Of a DNA stretch of 17,531 nt, positions 3,128 to 12,804 are shown in pieces. The notes below the pieces were generated by a model, which searched no databases, had not been told where the DNA came from, and saw nothing but the letters and a program-made list of their open reading frames with translations. Within the stretch, counting starts at the first letter, position 1. Every line of letters begins with the position of its first letter. The position numbers and the translations under genes were made by a program. The stretch covers positions 1 to 17,531 of the forward strand of contig JAGLYR010000004.1 in assembly GCA_023132135.1 (NCBI GenBank), in the 5' to 3' direction. The DNA is from Candidatus Eiseniibacteriota bacterium. Lineage in GTDB: Bacteria > Arandabacterota > Arandabacteria > JAGLYR01.

Positions 3128-4276
3128 TTGAACATTCACGAGTATCAGGCGAAGGAGATCTTCCGCAAGCATGGGATTCCCGTGCCTTGGGGGGAGGTTG
3201 CCGAGACGCCGGAACAGGCGAAGAAGCTGGCGGCCGATTTCGGTAAGCCTGTCGTGGTGAAGGCACAGGTTCATGCCGGTGGTCGCGGGAAAGCAGGAGG
3301 GGTCAAACTGGCGGCTGGCGCAGAGGAGGCAGAGACCGCGGCCGGGAAGATCCTGGGGATGGAGATCAAAGGCCTGACGGTTAGGAAGGTGTTGGTCACC
3401 GAGGCCATGGACATCGCCGCGGAGATCTACGTCGGTGTTCTGATGGACCGCAAGTTGGGTGGACCGCTCTTCATGGTGAGTGCAGCGGGCGGCATCGACA
3501 TCGAGCAGGTTGCGAGGGAGACGCCTGAGAAAATACACAAGTTCGCGGTGGATCCACTGCGGGGCCTGCGCTCCTTCGAGGCTAGGAACCTGGCATTCCG
3601 GGTGATGCCCGATGCCGATTCCGCCAAGGCCGCAGCGAAGATCTTCCCATGTTTGTACCAAGCTTTCGCGGACAGCGATGCGTCCCTGGCCGAGATCAAC
3701 CCGCTGATTGTCACCAAGGATGGAGAGGTGTGGGCCATCGATGCGAAGATGAACATTGATGACAACGGACTGGATCGGCGTCCCGAAATCGCTGCCTTGC
3801 GCGACGCGGATGCGGAAGCGCCGGAGGAAGGCGAGGCGAGGAACAGTGAGCTCAGCTACGTGAAGCTCGACGGAAACGTGGGTTGCGTAGTCAACGGCGC
3901 CGGTCTGGCCATGGCCACCATGGATCTCATCAAACACCACGGAGGCGACCCGGCGAACTTCCTCGATATTGGCGGGAGCTCATCGCCCGAAAAAGTCACC
4001 ACAGCGATGCGCATTATATACGCGGACAAGAATGTGAAGTCGATCCTCTTCAACATCTTCGGTGGGATCACGCGCTGTGACGATGTGGCCCGCGGGATCG
4101 TTGAGGCAGTGAAGGGGTCACCGCCTCCGATTCCCATCGTAGTTCGCCTGACGGGGACCAACGAGGAAGAGGGACGAAAGATCCTTGGCAAGACGGACCT
4201 GATTCCTGCGGCTACCATGGACGAAGCGGTGCAGAAAGCCGTGGAGCTGGCCGAGACTCCCGGGGGGACGGCATGA
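3128..4276 (+). CDS. sucC: succinyl-CoA ligase (ADP-forming) subunit beta
   Basis: The beta subunit (382 aa, close to the usual 385-390) pairs with SucD to convert succinyl-CoA, ADP or GDP and phosphate into succinate, CoA and ATP or GTP in the TCA cycle. It opens with NIHEYQAKEIF. The ATP-grasp domain contains VVVKAQVHAGGRGK at residues 42-55. INPL at 190-193 and AIDAKMN near 203-209 supply the metal ligands (N191, D205). The CoA-ligase domain holds NGAGLAMATMD near 256-266 and FNIFGGITRCDD near 308-319. The TTG start at 3128 follows GAGGAGG just upstream and gives the standard N-terminus. The gene is 10 bases after the preceding NTPase gene and 15 bases before sucD. Confidence 0.96.
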   Translation: MNIHEYQAKEIFRKHGIPVPWGEVAETPEQAKKLAADFGKPVVVKAQVHAGGRGKAGGVKLAAGAEEAETAAGKILGMEIKGLTVRKVLVTEAMDIAAEIYVGVLMDRKLGGPLFMVSAAGGIDIEQVARETPEKIHKFAVDPLRGLRSFEARNLAFRVMPDADSAKAAAKIFPCLYQAFADSDASLAEINPLIVTKDGEVWAIDAKMNIDDNGLDRRPEIAALRDADAEAPEEGEARNSELSYVKLDGNVGCVVNGAGLAMATMDLIKHHGGDPANFLDIGGSSSPEKVTTAMRIIYADKNVKSILFNIFGGITRCDDVARGIVEAVKGSPPPIPIVVRLTGTNEEEGRKILGKTDLIPAATMDEAVQKAVELAETPGGTA

Positions 4277-5890: not shown

Positions 5891-6424
5891 ATGGGTAAGT
5901 TTGTACTGGATCTAAGAGATCTGAAGGACGGCAAGAGCACCCGGAGTCTGGTGGGGGACGTGGAGTCTCTGGATCTCTCCAGAGATGAGTATGTCTTCCA
6001 TTCGCCGGTGCGGGTTGAGCTTGAAGTGACCAGGAGTGAGTACGAGATCTCGGTTGTTGGAGAGATCTTGGTCACCGCTCAGGTAGAATGCGCCCGCTGC
6101 GCGTGTGTGTCTACGCGTGAGATAGTGGCCGACTTGAGGGCTCGCTATATCCGAGTCCGCGGCAAGAGCGACTGGAACGGCAGGTCGGAGCACGCTGGGG
6201 TATTTCGGATTCAGTACGATGAGGGCGTGGTGGATCTGAGTGAGGAGATTTGCCAGAGCGTTCTGGTTTCTCTTCCAATGCGGGCCCTCTGCACGTCGGA
6301 CTGCAAGGGATTGTGCCCCTCCTGCGGTGCGAATCTGAACGAGGGGCAGTGCTCATGCAGACGTACACAGAGTCATCCTGCGTGGGCGGCCCTCGAAAAG
6401 CTGAAAGACATCGAGGGGCAATAG
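5891..6424 (+). CDS. yceD: YceD/DUF177 family protein, linked to 23S rRNA and L32
   Basis: The protein (177 aa) matches the DUF177 family, encoded almost universally just before rpmF. Family members have been linked to 23S rRNA accumulation, but the biochemical role is not settled. The conserved central motif VECARC with C67 and C70 is present. A C-terminal cysteine set, C138-x3-C142-x2-C145-x8-C154, is a likely zinc site found in many non-enterobacterial members. The N-terminus MGKFVLDLRDLKDG suits the family, so ATG 5891 is kept although no Shine-Dalgarno sequence precedes it. A promoter ends 11 bases upstream. An internal GTG at 5951 would remove the conserved start. It is the first gene of the fab operon. 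Confidence 0.85.
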   Translation: MGKFVLDLRDLKDGKSTRSLVGDVESLDLSRDEYVFHSPVRVELEVTRSEYEISVVGEILVTAQVECARCACVSTREIVADLRARYIRVRGKSDWNGRSEHAGVFRIQYDEGVVDLSEEICQSVLVSLPMRALCTSDCKGLCPSCGANLNEGQCSCRRTQSHPAWAALEKLKDIEGQ

Positions 6425-10768: not shown

Positions 10769-12019
10769 ATGACGGAGAACGGGAGAAGAGTCGTTGTCAC
10801 TGGACTGGGGGCAGTGACTCCCCTCGGGAAGGATGTCGCAGCTCTGTGGGAGGGCGCGTGCGCCGGACGGAGTGGGATTGGGCGTATCACACGTTTTGAT
10901 CCGTCATGCTTTGCATCACAGATAGCGGGTGAGGCCCGGGAGTTCGATCCAGAGGAATATTTCGACCGCAAGGAACTCCGGAAGACCGACAGATTTGCAC
11001 AATTTGGGGTTGCCGCTTCGCTCCAGGCAGTACAGGATGCGCGGCTGGATCCGAAGAGTGTCGATTCGGAGAGAGTGGGCGTCGTTATAGGCTCCGGTAT
11101 TGGTGGGATGGAGACCTTGGAGCAGCAGCACACTATCTCGATGGAGCGCGGACCCGCGCGGATTTCCCCGTATTTCATCACAATGATGATTATCAACATG
11201 GCTTCCGGATTGGTTGCGATCCGGTTGGGATTCAAGGGCCCCAACGCCGCTACTGTGAGTGCATGCTCATCCGGTGCGCAAGCTCTGGGCGAGTGTTTCA
11301 ACATTGTCCGGCGTGGCGATGCCGATGTGATGATTGGGGGTGGATCCGAGGCCTGCATTACGCATATGGGGGTTGGCGGCTTCTGCTCCATGAGAGCCCT
11401 TTCCACCCGGAACGATGATCCCGAGCGCGCGTCCCGTCCTTTCGACCGCGACCGAGATGGGTTTGTGGTCGCGGAGGGGGCGGGAATTGCTGTTCTTGAG
11501 TCGTTGGATCATGCCTTGGCCCGCGGGGCCAGGATCTATGCCGAGTTCGCGGGGTACGGCCTGACGGGCGATGCGTTCCATCAAACGGCTCCGGCTCCGG
11601 GAGGCGATGGAGCAGCTCGGGCCATGCAGATGGCCATGGGGCACGGGAATCTCAAAGCGCAGGACATCGACTACATCAACGCCCACGGTACCTCAACGGA
11701 GTTGAACGACAAAGTGGAAACAGCAGCCATCAAGACGGTGTTGGGAGACCGGGCGTACGAGGTTCCCATTAGCTCAACGAAGTCTGTGACCGGGCATCTG
11801 TTGGGAGCGGCAGGGGGAGTCGAGTTAGCGGTTACGGCTTTAGCAATTCACCACGGCCGTGTCCCTCCGACGGCGAACCTGGAGAATCCGGATCCGGAGT
11901 GTGATCTTGACTACGTACCGGGCAATTCGGCGAGGGAATTGCCGGTAAGAGCGGCGCTGACGAATTCGCTCGGTTTCGGCGGTCACAATATTAGCCTGGC
12001 ACTCAAGGCCTACAAGTAG
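10769..12019 (+). CDS. fabF: beta-ketoacyl-ACP synthase II
   Basis: FabF (416 aa) condenses malonyl-ACP with acyl-ACP during elongation. The nucleophile is C166 in [13 protein letters not shown]306 in [11 protein letters not shown] and H343 in [13 protein letters not shown] (with K338) complete the active site. [13 protein letters not shown] near the start and [10 protein letters not shown] near the end are typical of KAS II. The gate region [16 protein letters not shown] resembles the usual G-F-G/A-A loop, with a few substitutions. ATG 10769 lies behind GGAGAGG (10756-10762). It is followed by rnc after a short gap. Confidence 0.96.
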
Positions 12020-12033
12020 GGGAGCGGTTACCT

Positions 12034-12804
12034 ATCACATCACTGAAGCACTGGCTTTCGCGGCTGGGGAAATCGCGCGGGCGCGGGATTGCTCCGGATC
12101 GCACGAAGGTCCTTAAGAGATTTGAGAAGCGTGCCCGCGCCCGGTTCCGGGACCTGCGGATTCTGGATGAGGCCCTGACGCACCGCTCGTACTCTTCGAG
12201 GGCATTGGGAGGGAATCTCCATTCCAACCAGCGCCTCGAGTTTCTGGGCGATTCCGTTCTGGGGTTGATTGTGAGTGATGACCTCTACGAGGAGAAGCCC
12301 TCCTGGAGGGAGGGCGATCTCACGAAACGGAAATCTGTCCTGGTCTCCAAGAACATGCTGGCCGAGAGCGCGCGCTCCCTTGAATTGGGGGAGTACCTCC
12401 GGTTCAGCGAAGAGGAGCTGGAGGCGGGTGGAAACGATCGGGACTCGGCGCTGGCGGACGCCCTGGAGGCGGTCATCGGCGCGCTGTACATTGACGGGGG
12501 TTTGATCGCTGCCGCCGGTTTCGTCAAGCGGGAGTTGCTTGGACCCGTCCGATCGGTCGACGTGACGGACGAGCATCCCAACTACAAGAGTGAGTTGCAG
12601 GAGAGAATACAGGCGGAGTACAGGATTCATCCTCGCTACAAGGTGACGAGAACCGAAGGGCCCGACCACGAGAAGATTTTCACGGTGGAGGTGTCTGTGG
12701 CGAAGACCGTCCTGGGGGTGGGTTCGGGTCTGAGCAAGAAGGAGGCGGAGCAGAGCGCCGCCCGGGAAGCCCTCAAGAACGCGCACCGGGACTCAGGATC
12801 CTGA
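12034..12804 (+). CDS. rnc: ribonuclease III, apparent AUC start codon
   Basis: RNase III (about 256 aa) cleaves double-stranded RNA in rRNA and mRNA processing. The catalytic domain shows ALTHRSY at residues 47-53, NQRLEFLGDSVL at 65-76 (E69, D73) and DALEAVIGALYIDGG at 142-156 (D142, E145), with the same D-to-D spacing of 69 as in E. coli. A double-stranded RNA-binding domain follows from about NYKSELQERIQ to AAREALKN. Between the upstream in-frame stop at 11992-11994 and the TTG at 12205 this frame holds no ATG, GTG or TTG, and TTG 12205 would delete ALTHRSY. The best start is ATC at 12034, nine bases after AGGGGAG (12018-12024). CTG 12043 and ATT 12088 are alternatives. A sequencing error cannot be ruled out. 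fabF-rnc is a common pair. Confidence 0.85.
   Translation: MTSLKHWLSRLGKSRGRGIAPDRTKVLKRFEKRARARFRDLRILDEALTHRSYSSRALGGNLHSNQRLEFLGDSVLGLIVSDDLYEEKPSWREGDLTKRKSVLVSKNMLAESARSLELGEYLRFSEEELEAGGNDRDSALADALEAVIGALYIDGGLIAAAGFVKRELLGPVRSVDVTDEHPNYKSELQERIQAEYRIHPRYKVTRTEGPDHEKIFTVEVSVAKTVLGVGSGLSKKEAEQSAAREALKNAHRDSGS

Follow-up and report, generated by a model that had tools for sequence, protein, structure and literature searches.

The gene for RNase III (rnc) analysed here lies directly behind fabF and lacks all three of the usual start codons at its 5′ end; with moderate confidence, we place the start of its translation at an AUC codon at position 12034. The gene is otherwise intact, homology defines where its N terminus lies, and a good Shine–Dalgarno (SD) sequence precedes the ATC at normal spacing. 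The window, meaning the whole stretch of DNA that was analysed, is the whole of contig C280 (17.5 kb), part of a 3.40-Mb draft genome that is 96% complete. A series of fatty-acid synthesis genes on it has acpP–fabF–rnc at its 3′ end and is followed by fba, gap, pgk and tpiA (all names but rnc come from reading the translations). The following features, all on the plus strand, define the junction.

10769–12019, +, fabF, the upstream gene (ORF list); its stop TAG at 12017–12019 overlaps the rnc SD
11992–11994, +, in-frame stop TAG, the upstream bound of the rnc frame
12018–12024, +, SD sequence AGGGGAG (GGAG core), 9 nt ahead of the ATC and overlapping the fabF stop
12034–12036, +, ATC, the most likely rnc start on position, SD and homology boundary; protein fMet-TSLKHWLSRL...
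12034–12804, +, rnc, RNase III (TIGR02191, Pfam); 256 amino acids plus stop when read from the ATC
12043–12045, +, CTG, the second candidate start, 18 nt from the SD; duplex −2.4 kcal/mol
12205–12207, +, TTG, the first in-frame canonical start, within the domain and past ALTHRSY

An RNase III gene with no usual start codon

The rnc frame is open from 11995 to a stop ending at 12804 and contains no ATG, GTG or TTG from 11995 to 12204. The first-pass annotation had described this gap between the stop at 11992 and the TTG at 12205, as well as an ATC nine bases past AGGGGAG, and both descriptions are exact. ATG, GTG and TTG account for 5.8% of the codons in this genome's coding sequence, so that any one gene would show about 70 start-free codons in a row with a probability of about 1.4%; the run in rnc is notable because it spans the true 5′ end of the gene.

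The identity of the product is clear. It scores 232 bits against TIGR02191 (cut-off 166) over residues 30–249 of the ATC-initiated protein and matches PF14622, PF00636 (RNase III domain) and PF00035 (dsrm), thus combining an RNase III domain and a double-stranded-RNA-binding domain above the curated cut-off. It is also the sole TIGR02191 match in the draft genome. The RNase III domain begins at residue 30, corresponding to 12121, and alignment with the best solved RNase III chain starts at residue 23. The TTG at 12205 is the first canonical start and would be a gene caller's choice, but it lies 28 residues inside the domain, beyond the ALTHRSY encoded at 12172–12192, and starting there would remove 28 domain residues that are matched by both the RNase III model and solved RNase III chains. 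We regard such a start, a frameshift from fabF or a decaying gene as together very improbable, since the rnc frame matches its relatives from an N-terminal Trp onwards, stops close both alternative frames, and the remainder of the only rnc copy is intact. The same homology and closed frames exclude a sequencing frameshift that would restore a normal start, which the first-pass annotation had named as a refuting outcome. A FabF–RNase III fusion made by frameshifting was also considered and rejected: rnc is read in the −1 frame with respect to fabF, and the junction showed no slippery heptamer.

Placement of the N terminus and choice of codon

The fabF–rnc junction is common to relatives in the same class, and their rnc genes start 4 codons ahead of a conserved Trp. 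Their N termini read (TTG)DFDWLRRF in G001, (TTG)TFDWLRRL in G004 and (TTG)xPTWLQ in G002 and G007; G005 has an ATG start, and G006 is ambiguous between a late TTG and an ATA closer to an SD-like motif. At this place the window has ATC-ACA-TCA-CTG-AAG-CAC-TGG, which reads as ITSLKHWLSRL. The reciprocal-best alignment to the G001 protein starts at the Trp codon TGG at 12052 and stays in a single frame almost to the C terminus, at 42% identity. Together with the position of the relatives' starts, this alignment places the rnc start between the fabF stop (12017–12019) and 12052, and because the homology runs in a single frame from the Trp, no frameshift is needed. Conservation of the ATC itself, a check proposed at the outset, was not seen in the class relatives, which at about 44% protein identity carry TTG or ATG at this point. 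Searches for the junction elsewhere yielded no match in an exact-pattern scan of viral contigs and only distant fabF matches among plasmids, and a genome-contig search for the same species returned relatives at ≤52% only.

About five near-cognate codons in the rnc 5′ region were candidates for the start. SD usage was inferred from 630 predicted genes, as a 16S gene, sought for its anti-SD, was not found in the draft. An SD motif precedes about 530 of the 630 genes, mostly at 4–9 nt, with 9 nt a common spacing. The duplex ahead of ATC 12034 (−7.9 kcal/mol with the anti-SD) is stronger than that of 54% of 626 genes and is equalled at only 5.3% of random coding positions; because there were about five candidates, an SD this good would stand before one of them by chance in about 1 in 4 cases. 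ATC 12034 is a near-cognate codon at a normal distance (9 nt) from a GGAG-containing SD of median strength. By the same duplex computation, CTG 12064 and ATT 12088 have no SD to speak of.

CTG 12043 deserves closer consideration. A start there, giving fMet-KHWLSRL three codons before the Trp, would depend on coupling to fabF and have no SD of its own. It lies near the start used by the class relatives (4 codons ahead of the Trp). Codon usage switches near 12034–12043, scoring −7.8 bits (non-coding) over 13 codons and then +7.6 bits (coding) over 57; this switch agrees with a start at the ATC, but the best segment begins at 12043, the CTG. Against it, the SD is 18 nt away, a spacing of ≥18 nt being found in 4 of about 530 SD-bearing genes, and its local duplex is weaker than in 90% of genes. 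We therefore consider this start improbable. The SD and the homology boundary together make ATC the clear first choice among the candidates, and we think it somewhat probable that ATC 12034 is the real start.

The account we favour, again with only moderate confidence in the whole, is that rnc follows fabF in an operon for fatty-acid synthesis and would be translated from AUC 12034. The GGGGAG motif overlapping the fabF stop would place the 30S subunit, probably with help from ribosomes that terminate on fabF 14 nt upstream. The initiator fMet-tRNA would then read AUC as a near-cognate codon, and the inefficiency of such a start would presumably keep RNase III synthesis low. Both the 14-nt gap and the weak folding of the junction described below would fit this arrangement, the former through translational coupling and the latter through the need of a weak start for an open binding site.

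Odd starts and lesions elsewhere in the genome

The first-pass annotation had proposed the AUC start together with its main competitor, a base-call error. ATC 12034 stands as the best candidate by SD strength, spacing and N-terminal position, but an assembly error or a strain variant would give the same picture, and this explanation remains a serious, if less probable, alternative. In it, the true codon would be ATG at 12034 (or TTG, ATG or GTG at 12043), with one contig base wrong or drawn from a minority variant. A single substitution such as ATG to ATC suffices, the genome is a draft in 345 contigs, and the class relatives have canonical starts.

To set the case in its genomic context, we took a census of about 0.99 Mb of the genome as stretches containing 630 predicted genes, with 434 ATG, 132 GTG and 60 TTG starts. 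Ranked by coding signal ahead of the first canonical start, rnc is seventh of the 630, and the other top-ranked cases read as antisense shadow frames, prfB, two probable selenocysteine TGAs and an in-frame TGA on stretch L062. We also compared 97 reciprocal-best ORF pairs with G001. Only one real gene, rnc, has homology that extends upstream of its first canonical start, by 51 codons; the remaining flagged rows resemble antisense shadow frames, apart from a six-codon case that has a start nearby. As read from these comparisons, rnc is the only real gene with a missing start besides infC, prfB, the probable selenocysteine TGAs and one TGA.

Several of these genes are of interest in their own right. 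prfB has the site of a programmed +1 frameshift, CTT-TGA-C (L117, plus strand, near 3477). Of the two probable selenoproteins, one is a hydrogenase subunit resembling MvhD that reads CNW-TGA-A (L074, minus strand, near 5910 of the reverse complement); the other is a phosphoesterase that reads CG-TGA-H (L068, plus strand, 18344). The genome also has selB. On L062 (3155 of the reverse complement), a TGA takes the place of an expected Trp in a secreted protein (TYN*IEI), either as a nonsense mutation or as a base error.

This TGA bears on the error explanation as an apparent one-base lesion in the sampled 0.99 Mb, which thus contains at least one other; it is the sole such lesion observed in about 1 Mb. 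The very rough density that follows from this single nonsense codon predicts <1 broken start per genome, a figure that is not small beside the rarity of near-cognate starts. On the other side, frames are intact in all genes inspected on the 17.5-kb contig (ORF list), such lesions look rare, and a lesion at the start of one given gene is improbable a priori, though true near-cognate starts are also rare. Because the predicted error density is not small relative to that rarity, we put no more than moderate confidence in a real AUC start and keep an error or variant as a substantial though less likely explanation.

Near-cognate initiation very probably operates in this organism, as the same genome contains an infC with an ATT start (L057, 1489, contig C31). 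A strong SD, GGGAGGTGA, lies 5 nt upstream of this ATT, an in-frame TGA stands at 1480, three codons before it, and the first canonical codon falls inside the protein. This genome, from an uncultured phylum, thus appears to have the classical IF3-type ATT arrangement.

rnc starts in other genomes and possible regulation

We collected 164 distinct rnc loci from many phyla, 103 of them with fabF upstream; 157 had enough of the N terminus to test. A canonical start is missing in 2 of the 157, the window gene and L019, compared with 1 of 96 fabF and 0 of 58 acpP genes used as controls from the same stretches. With no enrichment over these controls, the idea that rnc is a gene prone to odd starts was rejected.

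L019 belongs to the G013 group, in another phylum. Both L019 and L159, from the same genus and 80% identical, have no canonical start before a conserved KLDPRRLFRR, and a third genome, L160 (74% identical), has KLNPRRLWRR at the equivalent N terminus. L159 and L160, read as reverse complement, have a GTG or ATG lower down, at the domain edge. L019 and L159 differ by eight bases over 22 codons, six of them at third positions. In this group, an in-frame ACG with GAGG 6–8 nt upstream, overlapping the end of fabF, is a candidate start. A single assembly error is unlikely to account for L019 and L159, and their lack of a canonical rnc start appears to have arisen independently of the window and to be partly conserved. 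That two related species of a second phylum share this lack weighs against error as the explanation for the window gene.

Initiation at near-cognate codons is itself an established mechanism, whether the AUC is real or an assembly error. The infC start is reported to be AUC in Streptomyces and is AUU in E. coli, both near-cognate and IF3-repressed (PMC5472188). The window rnc resembles these genes in starting outside ATG, GTG and TTG behind an SD, and its candidate AUC is the codon of Streptomyces infC; it differs in being rnc, in having an SD of only median strength and in the lack of conservation among class relatives. Streptomyces sigR has an IF3-repressed GTC start, proven by mutation and Western blot (PMC5472188). 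sigR likewise has a non-canonical start outside the initiation machinery that gene callers missed, but its start has experimental proof, whereas the start proposed for the window rnc is read from sequence. If the AUC start is real, a conserved housekeeping ribonuclease would join the short bacterial list (infC, pcnB, sigR and a few others) with starts outside ATG, GTG and TTG, and a gene caller confined to canonical codons would predict too short a protein for such a gene. Should an assembly error be responsible, the case advises caution over single bases in draft genomes.

RNase III is known to regulate itself by cleaving its own mRNA, at rncO in E. coli and at a coding-region site in S. aureus (PMC3386247). 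These systems offer a context in which having little RNase III is an advantage, but the window junction differs from them in having no leader and in folding less well than shuffled sequence (fold z-scores +0.7 to +1.7). No rncO-like cleavage hairpin was seen at the fabF–rnc junction, where the ATC follows the fabF stop by 14 nt and leaves no leader for an E. coli-type stem-loop, and the window has no Rfam match. The earlier suggestion that a poor start is a second way of keeping RNase III low thus gains no support: the ATC is not conserved in the class relatives, rnc is no odder than fabF, and an rncO-like hairpin is missing. Low output from a poor start, under IF3 control, is possible by analogy with infC and sigR. 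A broader reading, which we consider quite unlikely, is that several fabF–rnc lineages deliberately make RNase III from near-cognate codons (AUC here, perhaps ACG in the other phylum), so that output would follow fabF translation and IF3 fidelity, not mRNA cleavage.

Among the fabF genes, that of G097 (L221) has an apparent CTG start (TTTTTTCTGAAGCG) behind AAAGGGGTGA, which may be either a near-cognate start or a homopolymer error.
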